Below are positions 43,527-56,916 of a stretch of 64,000 nt of DNA, piece by piece (within the stretch, counting starts at the first letter, position 1; every line of letters begins with the position of its first letter). Where the stretch lies: contig NZ_CP009429.1 of NCBI RefSeq assembly GCF_001314325.1, forward strand, positions 4,526,501-4,590,500, read 5' to 3'. The stretch is from Sphingopyxis macrogoltabida (GTDB lineage Bacteria > Pseudomonadota > Alphaproteobacteria > Sphingomonadales > Sphingomonadaceae). The translations under genes were made by a program, and so were the position numbers. The notes beneath the pieces were generated by a model. That model ran no database searches, was not told where the DNA came from, and saw only the letters and a list, made by a program, of their open reading frames with translations.

Positions 43527-43650
43527 CGTGCCGGTCCTAGTGCGCAGGGCCGGTGCTTCCAACCGCCTTTACCAAGTTGCGGGAGGTTTGTGAGGATGTG
43601 CAAGCAATTTTCGCATTGCAATTGCCGCGCCGGGGACGACATTGGGACCG

Positions 43651-45744
43651 ATGCTGAGGCAATATGAACTCGTCGAGCGTGTACGCGCCTATGATCCCGA
43701 CGTCGACGAGGCGTTGCTCAACCGCGCTTATGTCTTCACCGTCCAGAAGCATGGCAGCCAGAAACGCGCGTCGGGCGACCCCTATTTCAGCCATCCGGTT
43801 GAAGTCGCGGGAATTTTGACCGATCTGCACCTCGACAGCGAGACGATCGTCACCGCGCTGCTCCACGACACGCTCGAAGACACGCTGACGACGCCCGAGG
43901 AGATCGAGCGCCTGTTCGGGCGCGACGTCGGACGGCTGGTCGACGGCGTGACGAAATTGAGCAAGATCGAGGCGCAGACCGAGAATGAGCGCGCTGCCGA
44001 AAATCTGCGCAAGTTCCTGCTCGCCATGTCGGACGACATCCGGGTGCTGCTCGTCAAGCTCGCCGACCGGCTGCACAATATGCGGACGCTCCACTTCATC
44101 CAGAGCCCCGAAAAGCGCCGCCGCATTGCCAAGGAGACGATGGATATCTATGCGCCGCTCGCCGAGCGGATCGGCATGTACGAGTATATGCGCGAGATGC
44201 AGCTTCTTGCGTTCCGCGAGCTTGAGCCCGAGGCCTATGCGACGATCACCGGCCGCCTCGCCAAGCTGACCGCCGGCGGCAAGGACAAGGTCGCGGCGAT
44301 CAGCCGCGAGTTCAAGGAACTGCTCGCCAAAAACGGCATCGAGGCCGAGGTGTCGGGGCGCGAGAAGCATCCCTATTCGATCTGGCGCAAGATGCAGGAG
44401 CGGCACGTCAGCTTCGAACAGGTCACCGACATCATCGCCTTTCGCGTCATCACCCCGACCGACGCCGATTGCTATGCCGCGCTGGGCCTGTTCCACCGCA
44501 AGTGGAAAATGGTCCCCGGCCGGTTCAAGGATTATATCTCGACCCCGAAGCGCAACGGCTACAAGTCGCTGCACACGACGATCATGCACCAGCAGAATAT
44601 GCGGATCGAAATCCAGATCCGCAGCCTCGGCATGCACCAGCAGTCCGAATTCGGGCTCGCCGCACACTGGGCGTACAAGCAGGGCGGCAGCACGCCCGAC
44701 GGGCAGGCCGGGTGGATACGCGACCTCATCGAAATCCTCGAACAGACGCACGATCCGGAAGAGTTTCTCGAGAACACCCGGATCGCGATGTACCAGGATC
44801 GCATCTTCGCCTTCACCCCGAAAGGCAGCCTGCACCAGCTCCCCAAGGGCGCGACCCCGGTCGATTTCGCCTACGCCGTGCACACCGGCCTCGGCGACCG
44901 CACCGTCGGCGCCAAGGTCAACGGCCGCCTCGTACCGCTACGCACCCAGCTGGCCAATGGCGACACCGTCGAGATTCTTTCGTCGGACAAGCAGACGCCC
45001 CAGCCCGCCTGGCTCGGCTTCGCGGTTACCGGCAAGGCGCGCGCCGCGATCCGCCGCCACGTCCGCTCGAAGGAAAAGGTCGAGCTCGCCGCGCTGGGCC
45101 GCAAGATGTACGACGAGATCGTCGCGCGCCTGCCGAACAAGGTCGGCGACAAGGCGCGCGCCGCGGCGCTGACCCGGCTCAAGCTCGACGACGACAGCGC
45201 GCTCTACGTCGCGATCGCCAAGCAACGCCTGACCGACAATGCGGTGCTCGAGGCGCTCGTCCCCGGCATTACCGCCGAGATGAAGACCAAGCCCGGCAAG
45301 CTCGCGCAGGGGGCCGCGGTATCGATCGCCGGGCTCACACCGGGCGTCGCCTACCAGCTTGCCGATTGCTGCCACCCCGTCCCCGGCGACCGCATCGTCG
45401 GGCTCGCGCGGCCGGGCGAAGGGATCGAGGTCCATGTCATCGACTGCCCCAGCCTTGCCGACGGGGTCGATGCCGACTGGATCGACCTCAGGTGGCAGGA
45501 GGATAGCGAGGGCGGCAATGCGCGGCTGTGCGTCGTCATCCTCAACGAACCCGGCACCCTCGCCGAAATGTCGGGCATCCTCGCCGCCAATATGGCGAAT
45601 ATCACCAATTTGCGCCTGTCGAACCGCGAGGGCGGTTTCCACACCTACGACGTCGTCGTCGAGGTGCGCGACGTCCACCATGTGATGCGGATCCTGTCGG
45701 CGCTGCGCGCGTCGGACAATGTGGTGCAGGCCGAACGGCTTTAG
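43651..45744 (+). CDS. rsh: Bifunctional (p)ppGpp synthetase/hydrolase (Rsh)
   Basis: A 697-aa stringent-response enzyme. It has the HD hydrolase (SHPVEVAGIL, LLHDTLEDT), the synthetase (KDYISTPKRNGYKSLHTTI, EIQIRSLGMHQQSEFGLAAHW in two blocks), the TGS domain (IFAFTPKGSLHQLPKGATPVDFAY) and a C-terminal ACT domain (VVILNEPGTLAEMSGILAANM). Alphaproteobacteria usually have this single long enzyme. Both activities look intact. The ATG at 43651 was chosen; a TTG at 43642 would add three residues. The gene converges with the cytochrome operon across an inverted repeat. Confidence 0.96.
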   Translation: MLRQYELVERVRAYDPDVDEALLNRAYVFTVQKHGSQKRASGDPYFSHPVEVAGILTDLHLDSETIVTALLHDTLEDTLTTPEEIERLFGRDVGRLVDGVTKLSKIEAQTENERAAENLRKFLLAMSDDIRVLLVKLADRLHNMRTLHFIQSPEKRRRIAKETMDIYAPLAERIGMYEYMREMQLLAFRELEPEAYATITGRLAKLTAGGKDKVAAISREFKELLAKNGIEAEVSGREKHPYSIWRKMQERHVSFEQVTDIIAFRVITPTDADCYAALGLFHRKWKMVPGRFKDYISTPKRNGYKSLHTTIMHQQNMRIEIQIRSLGMHQQSEFGLAAHWAYKQGGSTPDGQAGWIRDLIEILEQTHDPEEFLENTRIAMYQDRIFAFTPKGSLHQLPKGATPVDFAYAVHTGLGDRTVGAKVNGRLVPLRTQLANGDTVEILSSDKQTPQPAWLGFAVTGKARAAIRRHVRSKEKVELAALGRKMYDEIVARLPNKVGDKARAAALTRLKLDDDSALYVAIAKQRLTDNAVLEALVPGITAEMKTKPGKLAQGAAVSIAGLTPGVAYQLADCCHPVPGDRIVGLARPGEGIEVHVIDCPSLADGVDADWIDLRWQEDSEGGNARLCVVILNEPGTLAEMSGILAANMANITNLRLSNREGGFHTYDVVVEVRDVHHVMRILSALRASDNVVQAERL

Positions 45745-45849: not shown

Positions 45850-48800
45850 TCAATTCGCGTAGAGCAGCGGCGGCCGCCAGCCGCTCTGATCGACTTCGTC
45901 GCGGACCTTGTAGACGATCCCCTTGCTGTTCAGGAACAGCTTCTCCATCTCGCCGCGCGTGAAGGGCCGCGATCCGACGCGGCCGAACACCGCCATCTGC
46001 CCGCCCGTCTCGTCGACCGCGCGGTCGCGGTCGAGGCCCTTCGACAGCGCGAGCGCCGGCGACGGCGTTTTCGCCCAGGCGATCAGTTCGGGGGTCGGTT
46101 TCGGCGAGAAGCCATAGAGGCCCGGATTGTCGGGGCTGGTCAGCTGGAGCACCTTGATGCCGTTCCGGCCGTCGGCGACATAGGCGAAGAGCGAGGCGTT
46201 GGTCGATCCGACGATCACGTCCTCGGCATCGTTCAGCGCCCCCCCGAAATTGAGCCCCGGCCAGACGATCGGCGCCGCCGGCCGCGTCACGTCGACGATG
46301 ACGAGGCCGTCCGCCTTCGCCGCGACATACATATAGGTGCGCGCGACATAGATTTTCCGCGCATTGGCAAGCCGCACCGTGCCCGACGGCACCGCGACCG
46401 GCTGCGCGAGATTGGTGACGTCGAACAGCTTCACCCCCTCGGCATCGGTGACCCAGAGATAGCGGAACTGCACCGCGCTCGCGCGCGCGTCGGTCAGCGG
46501 CAGTTGCGCCGTCACCTTCGGCTGGAGCGGGGTGGTGAGGTCGAGCACGACGAGCCCCGCGTCGGTGGTGACATAGGCGAAGCTGCCCGCGAGCGTCACA
46601 TGCCGCGCCCCCGCCAGCACATTGCCGTCGTTCCACGTCAGCGCACGGGTGAACTTGTTGTTGCGGAATTCGCCGTCGGCGAGCGTGTCGATGTCGACGA
46701 GCACCAGCCCTTCGACGCTGTCCGTGATCACCGCATAGCGATAGATGTCGTGCATCTTCTGCTCGTGGTTCTCGGGGAAATTCTTCACGATATTCTCGTT
46801 GCGCGACACGCTGATCGGCTGCGTCGTCGCGAGCGCCATGCAGGTCGCGTTCTTCGTCTTCACATGCGTGTCGTGGCCGAGCGGCGAGAAGGGCGCGCGG
46901 ACGATGCGTTCGGAGAAACCCTTGTTGCCGATCGAAGCGACGTCATAGACGCGGAAACCGCCCTTGCCTTCCGCGACGAACATATATTCGCCGCGCTGCT
47001 GCAGGCAGTTCACCCGGCCGCTGGTGCCCTGGACGATATTGGCGAACTCCTCGAGCGCATGGGTTTCGCCCGAGCCCTTTTTGTCGAAGGTCTTGCCACG
47101 CACCCAGTTCTTGAGCTCGCGGCCATTCTGTTCGACGTGGAGTTTCCAGTAATCGGGATAGGCATATTTCTGGAGATAGCTGCCGATCACCGCCTGCGGC
47201 TCGTCCCATTCGGTGACGCGCGTCGCCTGGAAGCCGCCTTCGAGCCCCGACCAGACGTTGAGCCCGACGAAGTTGACGAAATTGGTGCCGAGCAGATTGA
47301 GCTGTGCCATGATCGCATTATTGTCGTCGGCCGCCGACAGATGGCAGTCGGTGCACTGTTTGGTTTCCGACCGGCGCACCGTGTGCGGGAAGTGCGGCGC
47401 GAACGCCTGGCTCGAATAGCCCGCCGAGCTGATCGGCGGCTGCTGCACATAGATACGCTCGCGGTTGATGTTGGTCGAGGAGAGGACAAGCGCCGAGGTC
47501 GATCGCACCGGGGTGATGATCCCGCGCACCTCGCCGTCGGGGCCGGGTTCGCCGGGCTTGGTGAGCTGGTGCCGGCCGAGCTGGAACATCTCGTCGCGCG
47601 CCACCTGCGGATTATATGTCGCGAAGTTGCGCGTCTCCTCGCCCTCGAAATGGTGCATCTTGGTTTTCCAGTTCGCCTCGATCGGCAAATGGCAGCCGCC
47701 GCAACTGGTGGTCCACGACAGGTGACAGGTGAAGCAGGTCATCTTGTCGTCGCCGTGCGCGCGATCCTCCTTCGCCACCCCGGGCCCCCACGCGAATGTC
47801 CCGTCGTCGGCGCCCGAACGCGCCATCAGCTTGGCACGCGCCGCCTTGGCGTTGAAATGCGGCCCCGGCGTCACCGCCTGCTTGACGAGACTGACCTGCC
47901 ATTCGAGCTTGGGATCGACGATCGAACGCTGGATCAGCCCGATCACCTCGGCATTGTCGTCATACTGGAATTCGAAGCGCCGCCGTCCGTCGGGGTTGCG
48001 CAGCAGCGCGAGGTTGGTGCCCTGCGGCCGCGCCGCGACGTTCGAGGTCAGGAGGTTGGGCAGCGCGTCGGCGGTGCCGTGGCAATCCTTGCAGCTGATC
48101 TCGACCGCGTTCGCGACTTCGCCCTGGATATAGCCGTTGCCATGACTGTCCTGCGCGAAGTGGCAGTCGGCGCATTGCATGCCCTTTTCGGCGTGGATGT
48201 CCATCATATGGACCGCCTTGCCGGGGTTGATGCCGGGCGGCACGAACTTGCCCTCGACCCCCGGCTTGCCCGGATCGGCGCTCATCAGGCAGAGGTCGCG
48301 CTGCTTCGGGTCGCTGTAATGACTGCAACTCTTGCGCCATTTCTCGGGATCCTTGGGATCGATGATATTCGCGGTGTCGGTGCCATAGGTCGCCATATTG
48401 CCGTCGGCGGTCAGCAGATTGCCGTTGCGGTCGCGCTTGAAGATGCCGCGGAAGTTCCAGCCGTGGCCGTGATAGTCGGCGAACTGCGTATCCTTGTTCG
48501 TGTCGTTGACGTCATAGACGTCGCGCAGGAACTCGACATCGGCCCAGAGGCCGCGCGCCGCGGCGGCTTCGGGATTGCGTTCGAGTACCTTGTGGACCTC
48601 GGCGGCGGTCGGATAGCGCTGCTGCTTGTATTTCTTCTGATATTCCTCGTCGCTCATCCCCGGCGGGCGCGGCGCGGTGTTGTCGGGCCCCGGCCACATC
48701 TGCGGCGCGTCCGATTCATAATCCCACATCGTGTAGCCGAGGTAGGAGTTCAGGAAGATGTTCGGCTGGTGCATGTGGCAGCTCATGCACTGCGAGGTCG

Positions 48801-50151
48801 GGATCGCACGGGTGAACGCATGGCTGATCGGGTGCCCCGATTCGCCCCGTGCGGGCGAGCCGGGGCGTGCCGGCACCTCGGGATCGGCGGGATCGATCAG
48901 CGAACCATGACCGCCCCCGGCCTGATGACCGTCATCGGCGCCATGCGCGTCGCCGCCATGCCCGTCGCCGGCTTTCCGCTTCTTTTCCGCAATCGTCGGG
49001 TCGACCGTCGCCGTCTCGCCATCGCGGCCGAACTTGGCATAGGTCAGGCTGTGCCGCGGCTCGCGGTCGTTGGCGTAGATGACGTGGCAGCCCGAACAGC
49101 CCGAATGGCGATAATCGCCCGGCTGGTCGTTCGTCCCCATGAACCACATGAGCGGGTCGTTGAGACGCGTCTTGTGGATGTTGAGCACCGGGATCGAGAC
49201 GCGCAGGCCGGTGCCGGGACCGCGGTTCGACTGTTTGAGGTCGGGGCGTCCCGGTTCCTCGAGCCGCTGGATGCTGCCCGTCGGGTTGGGCAGGCCGATC
49301 TCGGGGAATTGCGTGTTGATGTTGCGCCCGCCGCGCTCGAAGACACGGAAGACGTCGCCCGGCGGGATCACGCTCCAGCGCGGCAGCGGATACATTTTCG
49401 CGAGCGCGCCGCGCTTCTTCTCATCCTCGGTCAAGATCTTGTCGGACGGGAAGCTCGGTTTGCACGCCTCTTTATATTCCTCGGCGGTCAGCCGCGACGA
49501 CGGCGACAGGATGCAGGCCGATTCGCCTGTGCGGGTATAGGCCTCGCCGAAAATATAATTCTTATAGGGGACGATGCCGTTGTTATACGCCGCCCCGCCC
49601 CACAGCATCGCACCGGTCGACATCATCGACCGCTCGGTCGCCTCGATCACCTCGAGGTGGCACGCCCCGCACGCCTCGCGCGCGACGCGATAGTCGCTGG
49701 GGTTCACAAAGCGGATGAATTCGGGCGATTCCTTGTTGAGCAACGTATAGCTCCGCTCGGGGTTCGCCGAACTGTCGTGCCAGGCGCCGGGCAGCGTCGG
49801 CTGCGGATGCGCGAGCTTCATCGCCGCGAGATTATAGGGGTTCTTGTAGCCAAGTTCGGGCTTGCCGAAGGCGGCGGGCGTCGTCGCGTCGCCGCCATGG
49901 CAGTCGGTGCAGCCGAGCCGCACCGCGGGCGTCGTGTGCATCGACGGCTGGTCGGTGCGCGTGTGGCAGCTATAGCAGCCCTCCGATTTTGCCGCGACAT
50001 CGGCCTCGGTCTGCTCGCGCGGCGCCGGCGGGGTGAAGCGATATTCGATCTTGAGCGGCTTTTCCTCTTCGGACGCGCGCACGATGCTGGCGCCAAAGGC
50101 CAGCGTCATCAACGCGAAGGCCAGAAAGGCGAAGAGTTTGCGCGCCACCAT
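45850..50151 (-). CDS. Decaheme c-type cytochrome with LVIVD-type C-terminal propeller
   Basis: A 1433-aa exported multiheme protein. A signal peptide (KLFAFLAFALMTLAFGAS) is followed by ten CxxCH heme sites at about residues 59, 81, 161, 352, 455, 660, 687, 806, 817 and 933. Residues about 394-416 are a Gly/His-rich insert (GDGHGGDAHGADDGHQ). The last 400 residues repeat blocks such as GLVLVDIDTLADG, GLVVLDLTTPLQP and GLVIVDVTRPAAP, the LVIVD beta-propeller pattern of surface proteins. Its ATG abuts the porin stop without a gap, so it is the last gene of the four-gene operon. It probably faces the periplasm or cell surface and carries electrons across or along the outer membrane; the redox partner is unknown. 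Confidence 0.85.
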   Translation of the reverse strand: MVARKLFAFLAFALMTLAFGASIVRASEEEKPLKIEYRFTPPAPREQTEADVAAKSEGCYSCHTRTDQPSMHTTPAVRLGCTDCHGGDATTPAAFGKPELGYKNPYNLAAMKLAHPQPTLPGAWHDSSANPERSYTLLNKESPEFIRFVNPSDYRVAREACGACHLEVIEATERSMMSTGAMLWGGAAYNNGIVPYKNYIFGEAYTRTGESACILSPSSRLTAEEYKEACKPSFPSDKILTEDEKKRGALAKMYPLPRWSVIPPGDVFRVFERGGRNINTQFPEIGLPNPTGSIQRLEEPGRPDLKQSNRGPGTGLRVSIPVLNIHKTRLNDPLMWFMGTNDQPGDYRHSGCSGCHVIYANDREPRHSLTYAKFGRDGETATVDPTIAEKKRKAGDGHGGDAHGADDGHQAGGGHGSLIDPADPEVPARPGSPARGESGHPISHAFTRAIPTSQCMSCHMHQPNIFLNSYLGYTMWDYESDAPQMWPGPDNTAPRPPGMSDEEYQKKYKQQRYPTAAEVHKVLERNPEAAAARGLWADVEFLRDVYDVNDTNKDTQFADYHGHGWNFRGIFKRDRNGNLLTADGNMATYGTDTANIIDPKDPEKWRKSCSHYSDPKQRDLCLMSADPGKPGVEGKFVPPGINPGKAVHMMDIHAEKGMQCADCHFAQDSHGNGYIQGEVANAVEISCKDCHGTADALPNLLTSNVAARPQGTNLALLRNPDGRRRFEFQYDDNAEVIGLIQRSIVDPKLEWQVSLVKQAVTPGPHFNAKAARAKLMARSGADDGTFAWGPGVAKEDRAHGDDKMTCFTCHLSWTTSCGGCHLPIEANWKTKMHHFEGEETRNFATYNPQVARDEMFQLGRHQLTKPGEPGPDGEVRGIITPVRSTSALVLSSTNINRERIYVQQPPISSAGYSSQAFAPHFPHTVRRSETKQCTDCHLSAADDNNAIMAQLNLLGTNFVNFVGLNVWSGLEGGFQATRVTEWDEPQAVIGSYLQKYAYPDYWKLHVEQNGRELKNWVRGKTFDKKGSGETHALEEFANIVQGTSGRVNCLQQRGEYMFVAEGKGGFRVYDVASIGNKGFSERIVRAPFSPLGHDTHVKTKNATCMALATTQPISVSRNENIVKNFPENHEQKMHDIYRYAVITDSVEGLVLVDIDTLADGEFRNNKFTRALTWNDGNVLAGARHVTLAGSFAYVTTDAGLVVLDLTTPLQPKVTAQLPLTDARASAVQFRYLWVTDAEGVKLFDVTNLAQPVAVPSGTVRLANARKIYVARTYMYVAAKADGLVIVDVTRPAAPIVWPGLNFGGALNDAEDVIVGSTNASLFAYVADGRNGIKVLQLTSPDNPGLYGFSPKPTPELIAWAKTPSPALALSKGLDRDRAVDETGGQMAVFGRVGSRPFTRGEMEKLFLNSKGIVYKVRDEVDQSGWRPPLLYAN

Positions 50152-52056
50152 CTAGAAACTCACGATCACATTGGCGAGGATCGACAGATAGGCGTCGTCG
50201 CGCTGCTTGTTGTCGAACAGATCCTTGAACCCCTTGCCGGGCAGCAGCACCGCAGCGCTCAAGCGCCCGACGATATTCTGCGTCGCTTTCGGGCGCCAGA
50301 TCGTCGCGACCGACAGGTCCCAGCCGATATCCTTCGGGATCGATCCCTCGCTGCGCAGCACCTGGAGCGACGAGGTATTCTCGAACCACAAATGGTTGAG
50401 GTTGGTGCTGAGGCGAAACTCCGGCGTCAGGTCGAAATCGGCCCCGGCGCCGAGAAAGATCGTCCCCGGATTGTTGAAGTTCGACTGGCCCTCTTCCTTC
50501 GACGAACGCAGCGAGTTCAAGATGCCATTGCGCCCGCTGATCGAGATGACGCGTCCGCCGCCCGCGAACGGGATCGTCTGGCGGATCCAGTAGCTGGTGT
50601 CGGCGCCGCCGAAGATCGGGTTTTCAAAGATGGCGTCAAAGCCGCCCTCGGTGTTGTTATAGGGATCGCCGTCGCCGGTCGCGTAGAGCCCCGACAGGCG
50701 GAAACGCATCCAGTCATGGTCGTAGCTGAGTTCAGCCGCAGCGAAACCGGCGCGAATCTCGGCGGGCTTGCTGGTGAAGAAGCTGTTCCGGTCCTCGCCG
50801 AGCGCGGCGTAAAGACTTGCGGTCAGGTTGATCCGCCCGATCCGCCCGTCAGCGCTGTAGCCGAGATAGACGACATCATATTCGCGCCCGCGCAGGTCGC
50901 CGAGCAGCGCGGGGCGCACGGGGAAACCGTTGTGGTCGATCTGGATGTCGTTCTTTTCGCGGTTCATATTATAGGTCACGCTGACCTGGCTGGTCAGCCC
51001 GACGAACGGGAAATCCTGGCGATAGAGATTGCCGGTGAAGATGAAATCGCTGCGCGGCGTCTGGGTGATGTCGTTGAGGCCGCTGTTCGTATCCTTCTCC
51101 AGCCGCCAGAAGGCCGCGAGATTATATTGGAAGCGGTTGTTGTCGCGGTTGCCGAACAGGCGGATGCCAAGCTGGCTGTCGTTGAACAGAAAGCCGCGGA
51201 AATCGCTCTGGAACGGCTGGATGCCGAGCCGGATCGAATAGAAATCGTAGCGGTCCGATGTGTTGCCGAGATGCTTGTCGATGAAGGCTTCCTGCACCCC
51301 GATGAAATGGTCGAAGCGATGGCTGGCCTTCGACGGGCGCACGTCGAGCACGCGCCGTTCGGGCACGTCGACATAATTGGCCTGATAGGCGAGCGTCAGG
51401 CGATATTCGACGTCGGGCGGCTTGAACGCGGTCGAGCCCTTGATCAGCGCAAAGCCCGCGATGAAGGTCTGCGCGGCGACGAAGCTGCGGTTCTTGCCGA
51501 ACACGTCGAGGCTGCCCGGCCGCTCGGTGGTCTGGACGCCGTTCGGGATCGGGAAGGTGCGCGGTTCGAACACCGAATCGGAGACGAGGTTGGCGACGAA
51601 GAACCAGTCATCGCCCTTGATCGGCAGCCACGGCACCTTGCTGCGGTCGATCGCGCGGTCGCCCTTCAGCACATTCTGGTGATAGGGATCGAACCAGCGT
51701 TCCTTGACCACCCCCAGCGTCTCGATCAGCCGCCAGCGGTCGGGAACGGGCAACTGGTCCTCGATTCCCGGAAAGGCTTCGGGCGGCGGCGGGCGGAGCG
51801 CCCCGACATTGTCCTGCGTCAACTGGTCGGGCAGGTCGGGCGTGTAGCCCGGGCGGCGGCGGCCCTCGATGATCTGGGTGACGAGGTCGTCGTCCATCAT
51901 CTCTTTCCAGTCGACCGGCGGCGGCGGCGGAGTCAGTTCGTCGAGCGCCGGCTCCTCGGCCGCGGGCGGCGGCGGCACGGGTTCGGCTGCGGCCTCCGGC
52001 GCGCCCTGCGCCGCGAGGCTCGCGATGATCGGCCAAAGGCTGCCCCCCGCCATCAT
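50152..52056 (-). CDS. Predicted outer-membrane beta-barrel of the multiheme operon
   Basis: A 634-aa protein with an N-terminal export-type start, a Pro/Glu-rich stretch (residues 20-50) and then a long run of amphipathic strands of alternating residues with many Tyr, Phe, Asn and Asp turns (QFNYNLAAFWRLE-like RFQYNLAAFWRLEKDTN, WDLSVATIWRPKA), ending in VIVSF with C-terminal Phe, the BAM signal of outer-membrane barrels. Size would allow 20 or more strands, similar to MtrB-like porins. No CxxC at the N-terminus is seen, unlike MtrB. It lies 3 bases after the HbpS-like gene and directly before the decaheme gene. A function as sheath for a heme conduit is inferred from context. Confidence 0.75.
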   Translation of the reverse strand: MMAGGSLWPIIASLAAQGAPEAAAEPVPPPPAAEEPALDELTPPPPPVDWKEMMDDDLVTQIIEGRRRPGYTPDLPDQLTQDNVGALRPPPPEAFPGIEDQLPVPDRWRLIETLGVVKERWFDPYHQNVLKGDRAIDRSKVPWLPIKGDDWFFVANLVSDSVFEPRTFPIPNGVQTTERPGSLDVFGKNRSFVAAQTFIAGFALIKGSTAFKPPDVEYRLTLAYQANYVDVPERRVLDVRPSKASHRFDHFIGVQEAFIDKHLGNTSDRYDFYSIRLGIQPFQSDFRGFLFNDSQLGIRLFGNRDNNRFQYNLAAFWRLEKDTNSGLNDITQTPRSDFIFTGNLYRQDFPFVGLTSQVSVTYNMNREKNDIQIDHNGFPVRPALLGDLRGREYDVVYLGYSADGRIGRINLTASLYAALGEDRNSFFTSKPAEIRAGFAAAELSYDHDWMRFRLSGLYATGDGDPYNNTEGGFDAIFENPIFGGADTSYWIRQTIPFAGGGRVISISGRNGILNSLRSSKEEGQSNFNNPGTIFLGAGADFDLTPEFRLSTNLNHLWFENTSSLQVLRSEGSIPKDIGWDLSVATIWRPKATQNIVGRLSAAVLLPGKGFKDLFDNKQRDDAYLSILANVIVSF

Positions 52057-52059
52057 CGC

Positions 52060-54039
52060 CTATAGCCCGTCGCAGACATTTTGCTGCGCCGTGTCGAGGA
52101 AGGGCGCGAAGGGGCAACTGATATAGCGCAGCCGCACCCCGGCGCCGACGTTCACGACGATCGTATCGGCGCGGATCGCCTTGGGCGCGTTGCCGATGCC
52201 GCCGACGCGTGCGCCACCGTTATGTGTGCCCAAAAAGCTGATCATGTCGTCCTGGTCGATGCCGTCGCCCGACACCCCGATCGCCCCGACAAGGCGGTCG
52301 CCGCGATAGATGGGGACCGAGCCGGGAAAGATCTGGATGCCGTTCTGGAGCCGGTTCTGTCCCGCCGCGACGTCGGGCAGCGTCGTGCAACGCTGCGGCG
52401 TGTCGGTCGCACTGCTGCCGCCGACGAAACCCAGATGCGCGCCGAGATTGCCGATGATCAGCGCCGATTGCAGCCCGGTCGAGAAGGGATTGAACTGCTG
52501 GATCGGTCGCGACAGCGGGCCGTGCGGCCGTCCCACTTCGCCGTCGGGGAAATAGGGCCGCGACAGATTGCCGCCCGAGCGGTCGGCGAAGGCGATCTTG
52601 CCGGTGAGCGCGGTCGAATCACTCAGGAAAGTCCGCGTCGCGGGCACGAACTGGCGGACATCGGCGCTGGTGTTGGCGCTGAGTTCGGCGCCCGCCTGCG
52701 CGCCCGAGAAGAAGGCGGCGGTGCGCGCCTTCTGCAGGCTGACGTCGGTGCCGAAGATCGGCGCATCGGGCGAGCGGACGATCCCGAGCACCGACCCGTG
52801 CGTATCGACGACACTGATTGTCACCTGCGCGCGGCTGTCGAGCGGGCGGCGGATCTGCGCGCGCGCGCGGCTCATCACCGCAAAGGCTTCCTCGAGGACC
52901 GCGCGCGTCTCGGCGGCGGTGAGCGGCGCGCTGTTCGACGCGCCGTCGGTGCCGGCACGGATCGGATAGCGGTTGGTGCCGCTGCCGTTGGTGAGGACAA
53001 AGGCGTCGCGGTTCGAGAATTCGGCGCTGGTCGCGGCGCGGATGCCCGACGCCTCGCTGCCATAAGCGGTTCCCGCAATCACCGCGGCATTGGCATAGCC
53101 GGTGACCGCGATCAGGCTGCCCGCACTGCCGTTGACGCTGGCGAAACTGGTCCCGCCGCTGCTCATCACCCCGGCGAAGGTCGCGTCGGAGAAGCGCAGG
53201 CTGGTCCCGTCGACGGTGATCTTGTCGGCGGTGATGCTCGCCGGCGCCTCGAAGCCGCGCGTCCCCGCGAGCGCGATAAACTCCTCGGGGTCGGCGTCGA
53301 TATCGAGCGTGTCGGTGTCGATGCCGTAGTCGCCATCGCCCATCACCCCGATGCCGCCGACGAGCACGCCGTTCTTGTAGAGCGGCAGTCCGCCCGGATC
53401 GGCGGCAAGCCCGAGCGGCGAGCGCTTCGGCCCGATCAGCGCCGCCGAACCCGCGGCGCCGAAGCGCGACGACAGGTCGCTGCACGGTAGCTGGCTGAAC
53501 TGCACCCCGAACAAGGGCCCGCTCTCCAGACCGACGGTGGTCGGTGCGGGCGGAAAATGCTCCTGGACGATCTGGCTCGCGGTGCGGGTCGAAAAGGCGT
53601 TGCCGCCGCTCGAGAGGTAAGCGCCCGTCACCGCCTTGGCGATCGCCCCGGCAGCGGCGGGAAAGGGCACATTTTGCGCGTCGATATTGGCGCCGTTCGG
53701 CGCTGCAGAGGTCGTCGCTGTGGCGCGTGCGCCGTTCATCCGGAACACCGCGAGGACGTTGCCGACGCGGTCGGTCACCGCGATCACCGACGGCAGGCCG
53801 CGCGCCTGCGCCTCGGCGACCGCATTGGCCAGAATCTGCTGCACCTCGGTGACGCTGAGCGATTGCGCGGCGGGCGGGGTATAGAGGCCGCCCGGCGGCG
53901 GGGTCGGAGTCGGCGTGGGGGTCGGCGTCGGGGTGGGCGTCGGCGTGCCGCCGCCACCGCCACCGCCGCACGAGGTCAGGAGCAGCGCGCCGATGGCCGC
54001 GAAGGTCGCCGAACGGAACAGGGAGGATCGGGTTTTCAT
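52060..54039 (-). CDS. Lipoprotein with two GlcG/HbpS-like heme-binding domains
   Basis: A roughly 659-aa surface or periplasmic lipoprotein. The start MKTRSSLFRSATFAAIGALL ends in lipobox LTSC, followed by a Gly run and a Thr-Pro repeat linker. Two GlcG/HbpS (DUF336) units follow: SLSVTEVQQILANAVAEAQA with GVLVGGIGVMGDGDY (first), and LTAAETRAVLEEAFAVMSRA with GDRLVGAIGVSGDG (second). HbpS proteins bind heme and act in redox sensing outside the cell. ATG 54039 was chosen because it starts the signal peptide; the longer frame to 54141 lies inside the upstream gene. It lies 4 bases downstream of the cytochrome gene. Confidence 0.8.
   Translation of the reverse strand: MKTRSSLFRSATFAAIGALLLTSCGGGGGGGTPTPTPTPTPTPTPTPPPGGLYTPPAAQSLSVTEVQQILANAVAEAQARGLPSVIAVTDRVGNVLAVFRMNGARATATTSAAPNGANIDAQNVPFPAAAGAIAKAVTGAYLSSGGNAFSTRTASQIVQEHFPPAPTTVGLESGPLFGVQFSQLPCSDLSSRFGAAGSAALIGPKRSPLGLAADPGGLPLYKNGVLVGGIGVMGDGDYGIDTDTLDIDADPEEFIALAGTRGFEAPASITADKITVDGTSLRFSDATFAGVMSSGGTSFASVNGSAGSLIAVTGYANAAVIAGTAYGSEASGIRAATSAEFSNRDAFVLTNGSGTNRYPIRAGTDGASNSAPLTAAETRAVLEEAFAVMSRARAQIRRPLDSRAQVTISVVDTHGSVLGIVRSPDAPIFGTDVSLQKARTAAFFSGAQAGAELSANTSADVRQFVPATRTFLSDSTALTGKIAFADRSGGNLSRPYFPDGEVGRPHGPLSRPIQQFNPFSTGLQSALIIGNLGAHLGFVGGSSATDTPQRCTTLPDVAAGQNRLQNGIQIFPGSVPIYRGDRLVGAIGVSGDGIDQDDMISFLGTHNGGARVGGIGNAPKAIRADTIVVNVGAGVRLRYISCPFAPFLDTAQQNVCDGL
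53902..53970 (-). repeat. Simple repeat encoding the Gly and Thr-Pro linker of the HbpS-like lipoprotein
   Basis: Hexamer units of the type GTCGGC/GTGGGG on the plus strand (about 53902-53949) encode seven Thr-Pro pairs on the minus strand, next to a CCGCCA run (53950-53970) encoding Gly. Such in-frame repeats can change linker length by slippage. Confidence 0.75.
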
Positions 54040-54043
54040 ATCG

Positions 54044-55501
54044 TTAGCGCAAAGCCCTGATCGAACGCACCGCGCTGCCGAGCGCGGTCTGGAAGTCGGC
54101 GGGTTTATAGGCGTTGGGGTCCTTGACCGCGGTATAGGCACGATCGATGTCGCCGCGGATGCCGGCCGCCGCGCCGACGGTGACCCGTCCCGACGACACC
54201 ATCGCGTTGAGCAACGTGTCGACCCCCATCACGGCCTGCTGCGATCCCGAATAATCGGTGAAGCGGTCGTTGATCGCCTTCGCCGAGATCGCATCGACCA
54301 TCGCAAAGGCGTCGGTGCCCGAAAAGCCGCGCGACGCAAAGGCGCTCTTGAGCGCCGCGACCGTCTGCGACAGCTCCGCCGCCGCCTTGACCGCGCTTGC
54401 CCGGTCGGTCGCCATCGCCTTGTGGAAGGCGGCAGTACGCGCCGCGAGCTGGTCGGCGAGCGCGGGCGAGGCGAGCCGCGCGGCGGCGGCGAGCATGATC
54501 AGATTCTCGTCATTATAGGGCGGCATGCCTTCGGGCAGATTGCGCCCAGGGTTGCTGAGGCTGGTCTTCACCGGCTTCGCCTGATCGAAGATGCGGCGAT
54601 GGCAGCTGTGGCAGTCGAGGAAATAGAATTCGGGGAACATGCCCTCGGTCCCGCGCCGCGACTGGAACAGCGACAGGCTGCGTTCGATCGCGGTCGCCTG
54701 TCCGACCGCCCACATCTGGACATGGTCGGTCCGCCCCGCCGGGGCGCCGAACTTGCGCCAGCCGTAATCGGCATCCTCCTGATGATGCGCCTGCAGCGAC
54801 GAGAAGAGGTCGAGTTCGAAGCTGATCCTGGGATGCCCGGCCGCCATGATGCGATGGGTAACGAACTGGCCCTCGCCGGCCGAACCGAAATGGCAATCGA
54901 CGCAGACCCCCGCGCGGACCACCGGGTCTTCGAGCTTTTTCAGCCCGGCCGACAGGTTGGCGAGGTGCTTCTGGCGCATTTCGGCGTCGGGATCGGCGTT
55001 GGTGCCGACCCCGGCATAATGGCTCGCGATCCAGCCGCCCGCAGGACCGTGGCACGATTCACAACCGACCCCGTCCTCGATCGGCACCGTGCCGCGCATC
55101 GCGCCGCCCGCCGCGTCGATCGCGCCCTTGGTGCTGTGGCAGCCGAGGCACATCGGCGCCGTCGCTGCGTCGCCGATGCCGAGATTTTGCGCGATAAACC
55201 GGCTGCGGCTGTTGCTGAGCACCGCCCAGGCGCGGCTGTGCGCGCCGCCGGGGGTCGAGGGCTCCTGCCATTTCATCAGCTCGTCCTGGCGGACGACGGT
55301 CCCGTCGCCCTCCATCCGGCCGTGGCAGGTCGATCCGGCGCAAGAGGCAACGCCGGTATAGCGGGCGCCGCTTTCGCCCTGCGAACGCGCGGGCGGCGCG
55401 GCGACGATGGCGGCGAGCGCCAGCGCGAACAGCATCGACGCAAGGGCGGCAAATGCCGTCCAAGACCGATCGCCGCGCCCTGAACCCGCGTTCGTCGTCA
55501 T
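54044..55501 (-). CDS. Cytochrome c554-like multiheme protein
   Basis: A 485-aa exported cytochrome, first gene of the operon. The N-terminus has an anchor or signal segment (AFAALASMLFALALAAIVAA, about residues 16-35). Heme sites are one CX4CH (CAGSTCH, about 54) and four CxxCH (CLGCH 118, CESCH 147, CVDCH 200, CHSCH 297), five in total. The pattern VASCAGSTCHGRMEGDG is typical of cytochrome c554-type proteins, which pass electrons in nitrogen or respiratory pathways. The C-terminal 170 residues are helical without hemes. AAGGGGA stands 6 bases upstream. It probably takes electrons from the inner membrane and hands them to the other operon products. Confidence 0.85.
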   Translation of the reverse strand: MTTNAGSGRGDRSWTAFAALASMLFALALAAIVAAPPARSQGESGARYTGVASCAGSTCHGRMEGDGTVVRQDELMKWQEPSTPGGAHSRAWAVLSNSRSRFIAQNLGIGDAATAPMCLGCHSTKGAIDAAGGAMRGTVPIEDGVGCESCHGPAGGWIASHYAGVGTNADPDAEMRQKHLANLSAGLKKLEDPVVRAGVCVDCHFGSAGEGQFVTHRIMAAGHPRISFELDLFSSLQAHHQEDADYGWRKFGAPAGRTDHVQMWAVGQATAIERSLSLFQSRRGTEGMFPEFYFLDCHSCHRRIFDQAKPVKTSLSNPGRNLPEGMPPYNDENLIMLAAAARLASPALADQLAARTAAFHKAMATDRASAVKAAAELSQTVAALKSAFASRGFSGTDAFAMVDAISAKAINDRFTDYSGSQQAVMGVDTLLNAMVSSGRVTVGAAAGIRGDIDRAYTAVKDPNAYKPADFQTALGSAVRSIRALR

Positions 55502-55560: not shown

Positions 55561-56916
55561 CTAAACCACCCCAAATGCCAGCATCGCGTCGGCAACCTTC
55601 TTGAATCCCGCGATATTGGCACCCTTCACATAGTCGACATAGCCGCCCCCCTGATCGCCATAAGTCAGGCAGCGCGTGTGGATGCCGTCCATGATGTCCT
55701 TGAGCATCTGCTGCAGCTCGGCCTCGCTCCAGCTACGGCGGCCGCTGTTCTGGCTCATTTCCAGCCCCGAAACCGCAACGCCGCCGGCGTTCGCCGCCTT
55801 GCCCGGCGCGAACATGATCTTCGCATCCTTGAAGACATGCACCCCGTCGAGGTTGGTCGGCATGTTGGCGCCCTCGCTCACCGCGATACAACCGTTCGCG
55901 ACCAGCGTCTTCGCATCCTCGCCGAGCAACTCGTTCTGCGTCGCACACGGCAGCGCGACGTCGCACTTCACCCCCCACGGCGTCTTGCCCGCGGTGAAGC
56001 TCGCGCCTTTGAACTCGTCGCAATATTCCTCGATCCGGCCGCGGCGGTGCGTCTTGTGCGTCTTCACCCAGTCGATCTTTTCCTGCGTAATGCCGTCGGG
56101 ATCGTGGATGAAACCGCCCGAATCGGACAGGGTCAGCACCTTGCCGCCCAATTGGACGATCTTTTCGGCCGCGTGCGTCGCGACATTGCCCGAGCCCGAG
56201 ATGACGGCGGTCTTGCCGACTAGATCCTGCCCCTTCGCCGCCAGCATGTTGGCGAGGAAATAGACCGCGCCATAGCCCGTCGCCTCGGTACGGATCAGCG
56301 AGCCGCCCCATTCGAGCCCCTTGCCGGTGAGCACCCCGGTGAATTCGTTGGTGATCCGCTTGTACTGGCCGAACATGAAGCCAATTTCGCGCCCGCCGAC
56401 CCCGATGTCGCCCGCCGGCACGTCGATGTCGGCGCCGATGTGGCGATAGAGTTCGGTCATGAAGCTCTGGCAAAAGCGCATGATCTCGCGCACGCTCTTG
56501 CCCTTGGGGTTGAAGTTCGACCCGCCCTTGCCGCCGCCCATCGGCAGCCCGGTCAGCGCATTTTTGAACGTCTGTTCGAAGGCGAGGAACTTGAGCACGC
56601 TTTCGGTGACCGACGGATGGAAACGGATGCCGCCCTTGTACGGGCCGATGGCATTGTTGTTCTGGACGCGCCAGCCGCGCTGGACGCGGATATTGCCGTT
56701 ATCGTCTTCCCAGCAGACGCGGAAGGACACGACCCGGTCGGGCTCGGCGATGCGCCGCAATATCTGCTGCGCGTGATATTCTTCCTTGTCCTTGATGAAA
56801 TCGAAGATGTCCTCGGCGACTTCCTGCACCGCCTGCGCAAACTCGGGCTGCCCCGGGTTGCGCTTTTTCACACCCTCCATGAACGTCGGAAAATCGACGT
56901 GATCAGATACTGCCAT
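55561..56916 (-). CDS. gdhA: NADP-type glutamate dehydrogenase
   Basis: A 451-aa hexameric dehydrogenase interconverting glutamate and 2-oxoglutarate plus ammonia. Motifs: substrate-binding GGIRFHPSV, catalytic Lys in LPMGGGKGGSNFNPKGKS, FMTELYRHIGADIDVPAGDIGVG (in two blocks), nucleotide-binding VISGSGNVATHAAEK and the C-terminal GANIAGFKKVADAML. Length is that of small bacterial GDHs. It follows the cytochrome operon on the same strand but with a 59-base gap upstream of that operon's start, so it is a separate unit. Together with putA it would feed proline carbon into the citric acid cycle. Confidence 0.96.
   Translation of the reverse strand: MAVSDHVDFPTFMEGVKKRNPGQPEFAQAVQEVAEDIFDFIKDKEEYHAQQILRRIAEPDRVVSFRVCWEDDNGNIRVQRGWRVQNNNAIGPYKGGIRFHPSVTESVLKFLAFEQTFKNALTGLPMGGGKGGSNFNPKGKSVREIMRFCQSFMTELYRHIGADIDVPAGDIGVGGREIGFMFGQYKRITNEFTGVLTGKGLEWGGSLIRTEATGYGAVYFLANMLAAKGQDLVGKTAVISGSGNVATHAAEKIVQLGGKVLTLSDSGGFIHDPDGITQEKIDWVKTHKTHRRGRIEEYCDEFKGASFTAGKTPWGVKCDVALPCATQNELLGEDAKTLVANGCIAVSEGANMPTNLDGVHVFKDAKIMFAPGKAANAGGVAVSGLEMSQNSGRRSWSEAELQQMLKDIMDGIHTRCLTYGDQGGGYVDYVKGANIAGFKKVADAMLAFGVV

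Follow-up and report, generated by a model that had tools for sequence, protein, structure and literature searches.

We propose that four adjacent genes of Sphingopyxis macrogoltabida, located in a 64-kb stretch of contig NZ_CP009429.1 from its 5.75 Mb genome (this whole stretch is called the window below), constitute the outer module of a signal-gated, trans-envelope electron-export chain, which would be driven by nicotinamide adenine dinucleotide (phosphate) (NAD(P)H) and would terminate in a dedicated outer decaheme reductase. We consider this reading moderately probable. The genes encode, in order, a multiheme cytochrome resembling cytochrome c554 (cyt5), a lipoprotein candidate with HbpS/GlcG-type domains, a candidate outer-membrane beta-barrel, and a decaheme cytochrome with a C-terminal LVIVD-type propeller (deca). 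An earlier, sequence-only reading of the window had placed them on one strand, 0 to 4 bases apart, and the open reading frame (ORF) list with a check of motifs and starts agrees: all four lie on the minus strand, with gaps of 4, 3 and 0 bases when ATG 54039 is taken as the start of the HbpS-type gene, whose frame opens at GTG 54141, acquires a lipoprotein-type beginning (MKTRSS...LLTSC) at that ATG and stops at 52060. The same reading regarded the four genes as a non-canonical redox set, and this holds; it missed half of the machine, namely a large flavo-iron-sulfur protein (red800), a membrane protein with candidate sites for two b-type hemes, and a second, membrane-anchored decaheme protein (deca2), which together form the inner module. 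Our argument is built on gene content, co-location, co-occurrence, motifs, a gene fusion and signalling genes beside the operon, all of which can be read directly from sequence.

The link between the two modules is apparent from related loci. We compared 80 named loci from species-level genomes, the best 80 of at least 594 confirmed stretches, ranked by a gammaproteobacterial query and thus not a random sample; by title they comprise 53 Gamma-, 14 Alpha- and 8 Betaproteobacteria and 5 without a class, many being metagenome-assembled genomes (MAGs). In 57 of the 80, the three inner genes and the HbpS/barrel/decaheme core all lie on one strand within the fetched stretch. The order red800, membrane protein, deca2, HbpS, barrel, deca on one strand is found in 53, with cyt5 following in 34 of these, and four further loci of the 80 have a betaproteobacterial order in which red800 comes after cyt5. 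Among the 59 named loci with at least 9.5 kb upstream, red800 was found in 56, the membrane protein, deca2 and the HbpS gene in 57 each, and the barrel gene in 59. One locus without red800 (L172) has a contig that ends soon past cyt5, where related betaproteobacteria keep this gene. Outside the named set, red800 lies near 13 of 19 loci with room, is unlinked in G405 and G451, and falls beyond the stretch in G186, G409, G146 and G317. In the first 30 loci the barrel and decaheme genes always occur together, as does the HbpS gene except in L065, where the stretch begins inside the barrel gene. The earlier reading named loss of joint conservation as a ground for its refutation, and this did not occur: the core is kept across Alpha-, Beta- and Gammaproteobacteria, with cyt5 less constant. 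A chance cluster is ruled out by this retention of gene order across classes.

In the window genome the inner genes lie about 1.1 Mb from the window set, at C1:3462283-3467364, which rules out a system limited to the window. Co-occurrence extends to genomes of this kind. Of 26 genomes (20 Sphingopyxis and 6 of other genera), 24 carry deca2; the two that do not (G015 and G017, both Sphingopyxis) have weak red800 matches only and also lack deca and the barrel. In a phylum sample of 398 genomes red800 was found in 15, including all 11 with a full-length deca. Of the others, G213 gave no deca match, its HbpS and barrel genes reaching a contig end, and G060 carries red800 twice, with the membrane protein and a decaheme protein following one of the two near the end of a contig. 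In two genomes (L196:3044-6403 and L197:3052-6420, from G093 and G212) a single frame of about 1120 amino acids (aa) joins red800 to the membrane protein, a fusion that supports direct contact between the two proteins. The inner module of the window genome is adjoined by a calcineurin-type phosphoesterase gene and a gene with a Trans_reg_C domain (L087:5179-7106); a homologue of the former in L053 resembles the cyclic-nucleotide phosphodiesterase SpdA, under the cut-off, and these neighbours may be part of the system's control. Upstream of the inner module of L069 stands a caspase-domain (Peptidase_C14) gene that is cut by the stretch end, and a Trypsin_2 protease gene, with a homologue in L070, adjoins deca in the same locus (L069:17348-18001 and L069:2654-3814).

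The motifs of the inner proteins fit an electron-input path. Red800, about 810 aa, matches Pyr_redox, two cyclic-nucleotide-binding (cNMP-binding) domains and several 4Fe-4S families. The motif for flavin adenine dinucleotide (FAD) is present in 72 of 73 members, along with a second dinucleotide motif, and six CXXC motifs past residue 600 occur in 73 of 73, none lying in the flavin part of the reference. The Cys groups number four, are of the [4Fe-4S] type and resemble a DmsB-type four-cluster ferredoxin. Both cyclic-nucleotide domains have a G-E...R pattern, the signature of ligand binding; in the second domain its Glu is kept only at 70% or more. The membrane protein, about 290 aa, contains two WX3HX13H motifs in 81 of 81 members and SGXXG in 79 of 81; five helices are predicted in 74 of 81, and in 70 of 81 helices 3 and 5 of the five carry the WX3HX13H motifs while helix 4 carries SGXXG. 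Deca2 has ten heme sites (nine in 3 of 83 members), preceded by one hydrophobic helix in 75 of 83 and by two in 8. Ahead of the helix, at residues 23-101, its profile matches the FHA structures GarA, EmbR and Rv1747; scanned members match FHA (PF00498) in 11 of 15 and YscD_cpl in 13 of 15, with the window genome's own deca2 under the Pfam FHA cut-off (17 versus 20.7 bits). The heme part matches cytochrome 3ov0 at 1e-16, which we take to be a c7-type wire.

In the outer module, the suggestion of a dedicated reductase comes from deca. It has exactly 10 CXXCH motifs, a number repeated in 100 of 100 full-length homologues (four pairs of rows identical), so the count is not chance, and LVIVD (PF08309) matches its C-terminus over the curated cut-off (50 versus 20.2 bits), in accordance with the earlier description of a 1433-aa decaheme protein with an LVIVD-type propeller. 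Mean pairwise identity over the same 61 loci is 0.651 for deca (lowest pair 0.588), 0.565 for the barrel, 0.542 for red800, 0.538 for HbpS, 0.46 for the membrane protein and 0.336 for deca2; deca is thus the most conserved component, and the two ten-heme proteins of one set differ almost twofold. At 65% against 34% identity, this suggests that deca is a reductase with a dedicated task and not a passive wire: a passive surface wire would be expected to vary most, and we read an outer cytochrome that varies least as a sign of a defined substrate and tight partners. The best named NCBIfam match of deca is ExtM (NF040943), of a selenite/tellurite reduction operon, which is matched by 13 of 13 scanned members (56.7 bits in L059), the best stretches covering some 50 residues on either side of and including heme motifs. 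The window protein scores 70.4 bits where the family demands 800, and on this ground an ExtM operon is ruled out. The MtrA/DmsE-type decaheme family (TIGR03508) has no match in deca and scores 15.8 bits with cyt5 and 17.9 bits with deca2 of L069, against a cut-off of 192.2.

The same conservation bears on whether the set is a general conduit of the MtrCAB kind, serving extracellular electron transfer to minerals, electrodes or other cells, in which a generic wire should vary freely. The cultured hosts that we recognise by name are presumably aerobic heterotrophs, though many hosts are MAGs; no MtrB/PioB homologue was found in the window genome, and red800 suggests input from NAD(P)H, not quinol. 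In favour of a conduit, the set combines a porin candidate, multiheme cytochromes and a membrane protein bearing the PCC3/PCC4 signature proposed for such conduits in the main text of He et al. 2017 (PMC5566968). On this evidence we find a general conduit distinctly improbable.

A tree of 101 deca sequences (97 different) follows class, with 5 changes of class label against a least possible 2 and 20.4 on shuffling; the Betaproteobacteria and a Lysobacterales group sit on the alphaproteobacterial side. A MAG titled Bordetella parapertussis (L165) that has the operon adjoins betaproteobacterial relatives in this tree, and its title looks mislabelled. In one congener (G010) the decaheme gene is in two pieces, on contigs C9 and C2, one with an internal stop.

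The HbpS-type protein and the barrel candidate separate deca from cyt5 in the operon. HbpS-like (PF03928) matches the former well over the curated cut-off (86.7 versus 25 bits), and its alignment finds GlcG/EfgA 6bws (5.5e-10), HbpS 3fpv (0.0048) and other members of that fold; a lipobox pattern is present in 46 of 82 homologues, with starts chosen by script. An HbpS-like lipoprotein as part of a non-canonical redox set, as first suggested, is borne out, and the gene is near-constant across loci. The protein has PF03928 in common with HbpS of Streptomyces, GlcG and EfgA, and differs from them in the long inserts of its HbpS-like regions, in its candidate lipoprotein nature and in its constant place within a redox operon; its similarity to HbpS itself is marginal. 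Between deca2 and the HbpS gene, L153 (5274-6206) and nine other named loci have a small gene, cl9, which is partly biotin/lipoyl-like in L153; its hosts are nine Alphaproteobacteria and one titled Proteobacteria only.

The 634-aa barrel candidate ends in ...NVIVSF and has no Cys. It had no Pfam or NCBIfam match at E 1, so its barrel nature is not confirmed by Pfam. A search for MtrB_PioB (PF11854) gave no match in the window protein and in 0 of 59 homologues at E 0.05, and direct comparison with an MtrB-like protein found no similarity, nor did a control comparison with the HbpS alignment; the candidate is not an MtrB/PioB porin. In 90 of 92 homologues the sequence closes with an aromatic residue (Y, F or W). 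Weak Alginate_exp matches were found in 9 of 59 homologues, though not in the window's own protein. Comparison of the barrel with an Alginate_exp protein gave a short shared motif, a match of 48 columns (probability 8.7%). We take the aromatic C-terminus, the Alginate_exp likeness and this motif as modest signs of a barrel. Searches of PDB sequences with the barrel, deca and membrane-protein alignments gave no usable match.

These features also fit a different arrangement, in which the barrel and HbpS protein import a small substrate and deca reduces it in the periplasm via the same NAD(P)H chain, so that no electron crosses the outer membrane. The signal-like start of deca without a lipobox is consistent with this, its very high conservation suggests an enzyme, the sole fold hint for the barrel is a transport porin family, and the HbpS/GlcG fold family includes heme-binding proteins. 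However, a surface assembly would account equally well for the propeller and for the tight core of three genes, and the Alginate_exp match is absent from the window protein and weak in its homologues. We regard a periplasmic reductase with its own uptake porin as unlikely.

Cyt5 would connect the two modules. Its match to Cytochrome_C554 (PF13435) is over the curated cut-off (45.5 versus 20.8 bits, residues 86-152 only), its profile matches the cytochrome c554 structure 1bvb (E 2.5e-6), and its hydrophobic start score is 2.57. The protein had been described as a five-heme, c554-like cytochrome; the likeness and four CXXCH motifs stand, while the fifth heme depends on a single non-canonical CX4CH site (CAGSTCH, residue 54), which is kept in 70 of 70 full-length homologues. 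Cyt5 lies close to the core in 57 of 75 named loci with room.

Genes related to protein phosphorylation follow cyt5 in many loci. In the 42 named loci with a plus-strand cyt5 and at least 3 kb after it, a PP2C gene was found in 22, a gene for an FHA protein in 22 and both in 19. Gammaproteobacteria account for PP2C in 22 of 34 loci and FHA in 20 of 34, the five Betaproteobacteria have neither, and the remaining FHA matches are in L150, without a class, and in the alphaproteobacterial L136, where the match is weak and far from cyt5. The last four bases of cyt5 in L132 are shared with the PP2C frame. After cyt5 in the same locus (L132:14925-21237) come genes for PP2C, an FHA protein, a 289-aa protein without a Pfam match, an autotransporter and a Ser/Thr kinase. 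Because PP2C, FHA and kinase genes stand beside the operon, and cyclic-nucleotide and FHA domains occur within the inner proteins, the gene content suggests a gated enzyme and not a constitutive wire.

The earlier view that such a set is rare in an aerobic sphingomonad proved wrong: it was found in 33 of 35 congeners and, among the genomes listed from the family's other genera, in 6 of 17. In 24 genomes of other families of the order there was none. A class sample had the decaheme gene in 16 of 240 genomes (own included, with one weak match and one contig-end fragment among them) and a phylum sample in 13 of 398 (own included, 11 full-length and 2 weak partial). Matches in G126 and G302 were not counted as relatives, having 31% or less identity over part of the protein. 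The gene is also present in 13 plasmid records (12 Sphingobium and 1 Sphingopyxis), and two more records match the propeller only. In Sphingobium herbicidovorans both halves stand together on the 959 kb plasmid pMSHV, typed conjugative (L175), flanked by two ShlB-type secretion genes and the gene of a 2092-aa protein without a Pfam match.

Taken together, these observations are consistent with the following mechanism, in which the cofactors, the direction of electron flow, the assembly into complexes, the exposure at the surface, the gating and the substrate are our inferences. Cytosolic NAD(P)H would deliver electrons to the FAD and four [4Fe-4S] clusters of red800, which the two cyclic-nucleotide domains would gate. 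From red800, electrons would pass to the two b-type hemes of the five-helix membrane protein and then to the helix-anchored decaheme wire deca2, whose cytosolic end would be its FHA domain. The c554-like cyt5, as a shuttle or relay, would carry them to a complex of HbpS lipoprotein, barrel and decaheme-propeller protein at the outer membrane, where the highly conserved deca would reduce a specific acceptor. The sequence gives no direction, and the same chain could run inward, with deca oxidising Fe(II), Mn(II), an organic compound or some other outside donor and the chain feeding quinone or NAD(P)+; the main text of He et al. (PMC5566968) draws PCC3 and PCC4 in this sense. Against uptake, red800 combines an NAD(P)H-type flavin domain with cyclic-nucleotide domains, as a regulated reductase might. 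Moreover, such donors could reduce NAD(P)+ only against the energy gradient, and we judge uptake very improbable.

We acknowledge that several observations weigh against the export chain with a dedicated outer reductase. All three inner genes are missing within reach of 2 of the 59 named loci with room upstream (L148 and L157), the HbpS match is missing from two others (L112 and L144), and cyt5 is absent near 18 of 75. Conversely, G093 and G212 have the inner module without the outer one, the fused red800-membrane protein being adjoined in their stretches by a nine-heme cytochrome, as a stand-alone inner module. NAD(P)H use by red800 is read from motifs only, and the PP2C and FHA genes past cyt5 are essentially confined to Gammaproteobacteria among the named loci with room. 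The surface position of deca is not given by its sequence, because it has no lipobox, and a loose lipobox pattern occurs in 3 of 100 N-termini of the family. For the barrel candidate, a crude alternation test counted 31 amphipathic segments against 29.7 +/- 2.7 in shuffles (controls: deca 39 versus 44.9 +/- 3.6, HbpS 31 versus 26.8 +/- 3.3), a result that favours neither side, and its hydrophobic start score of 1.39 indicates a weak signal-like start, the score exceeding 1.8 in 45 of 92 homologues. AlgE has 18 strands, and the Alginate_exp likeness, if real, may mean a barrel too narrow to sheath a decaheme protein.

Table 1. Features of the gene set in the 64-kb window (coordinates are window positions).
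Feature	Coordinates	Strand	Basis or remark
cyt5, c554-like multiheme cytochrome, signal-like start, 485 aa	54044..55501	-	First of the four genes; ORF, motifs, Pfam
Non-canonical heme site CX4CH (CAGSTCH) of cyt5, residues 54-60	55322..55342	-	Motif scan
HbpS/GlcG-domain lipoprotein candidate, lipobox LTSC, 659 aa	52060..54039	-	ORF, Pfam PF03928
Outer-membrane beta-barrel candidate (predicted), 634 aa, no Cys, aromatic C-terminus	50152..52056	-	ORF, C-terminal residue
deca, 1433-aa decaheme cytochrome, signal-like start, C-terminal LVIVD propeller	45850..50151	-	ORF, motifs, Pfam
Heme-bearing part of deca, residues 27-1045, boundary approximate	47017..50073	-	Motif positions, alignment
LVIVD-type propeller region of deca, approximate	45982..47004	-	Pfam LVIVD E 1.8e-13, residues 1263-1295; choice_anch_B

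The operon is flanked by a gdhA-like gene (55561-56916, minus strand), which ends 59 bases upstream of cyt5, and, on the deca side, by a rel/spoT-like gene on the opposite strand (43642-45744). Both were recognised by eye, and both calls match how this neighbourhood is annotated in Sphingopyxis indica, where gdhA, operon and rel lie on pMC4 (L176), a 404 kb plasmid record typed conjugative. A plus-strand ORF of 1853 aa (46504-52065) facing the barrel and decaheme genes was taken as a high-GC artefact. Rfam and ARAGORN find one tRNA in the window, and promoter and terminator scans gave results no better than chance. Distance-matrix correlations between components range from 0.49 to 0.90, had no control and are not used as evidence.

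If the proposed chain is correct, many Proteobacteria (at least 594 matched stretches), including genera known as aerobic heterotrophs, carry an export machine with up to 25 heme sites, whose components are annotated in the records examined as hypothetical, LVIVD-repeat or multiheme cytochrome proteins. The export of electrons across the envelope would then serve not anaerobic respiration alone but also regulated reactions with specific substrates, and the chain would be a candidate for those surface reductions of aerobes that have no assigned enzyme. Sphingopyxis offers a convenient case, with the two halves at separate loci and singly deletable.

No description of the gene set was found in the open-access literature; supplements fall outside this and may list the cluster unnamed (PMC11475568, a scan selecting clusters of 15 or more hemes, and Supplementary Table 6 of PMC5566968). 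In common with MtrCAB and PioAB, the set encodes an outer-membrane protein candidate with decaheme cytochromes. It differs in that the porin candidate was unmatched to PF11854 in all tests and no MtrA/DmsE-type decaheme is present; with both families absent, an ordinary MtrCAB/PioAB system is ruled out. In further contrast to MtrCAB, the outer decaheme is not a lipoprotein (lipobox in 3 of 100), and the input is apparently a flavo-iron-sulfur protein with a diheme b protein instead of a CymA-type quinol dehydrogenase (for CymA, the main text of PMC5566968 and general background).

The closest parallels are with PCC3 and PCC4 as described in the main text of He et al. 2017 (PMC5566968). The inner-membrane protein of both has five helices, of which the third and fifth bear WX3HX13H and the fourth SGXXG, a signature found here too, together with a periplasmic multiheme cytochrome, other redox proteins and a porin (here a candidate). 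PCC4 subgroup II has a pfam13247 iron-sulfur gene, and red800 also matches PF13247. However, the cytochromes of PCC3 (extracellular and periplasmic, with heme medians of 34 and 21) and PCC4 (three periplasmic cytochromes of 4, 5 and 10 hemes) both differ from the present 10, 10 and 4+1 heme sites, and that main-text description mentions no HbpS lipoprotein, no LVIVD decaheme, no FHA anchor, no cyclic-nucleotide domains and no PP2C, FHA or kinase genes. The same source describes mostly porin-less clusters of another multiheme cytochrome, an inner-membrane protein and a redox protein, with Leptothrix cholodnii SP-6 as an exception that has a 24-strand porin; this cluster may be the present system.

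Eukaryotic NADPH oxidases are regulated by signalling. By analogy, the chain could be their counterpart in Proteobacteria at large, a signal-gated trans-envelope machine that spends cytosolic NAD(P)H on one defined surface reduction, such as superoxide formation from O2 or the reduction of a bound metal or heme ligand, with gating by cyclic nucleotides and, in many gammaproteobacteria, by Ser/Thr phosphorylation (FHA, PP2C, kinase); we hold this joint reading tentatively, as a possibility on the unlikely side. In NADPH oxidases and ferric reductases a flavin is followed by two b-hemes, which HX13H pairs of the third and fifth helices bind (main text of PMC5566968), and in motif terms the likeness is confined to this spacing. 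The families differ: PF01794 had no match in the membrane proteins scanned, and no FNR-type flavin match was among the 25 of 26 families shown for red800, whose flavin part matches Pyr_redox. Unlike an NADPH oxidase, the present system would add iron-sulfur clusters and multiheme c-type cytochromes, which are proposed to take the electrons on across the periplasm.

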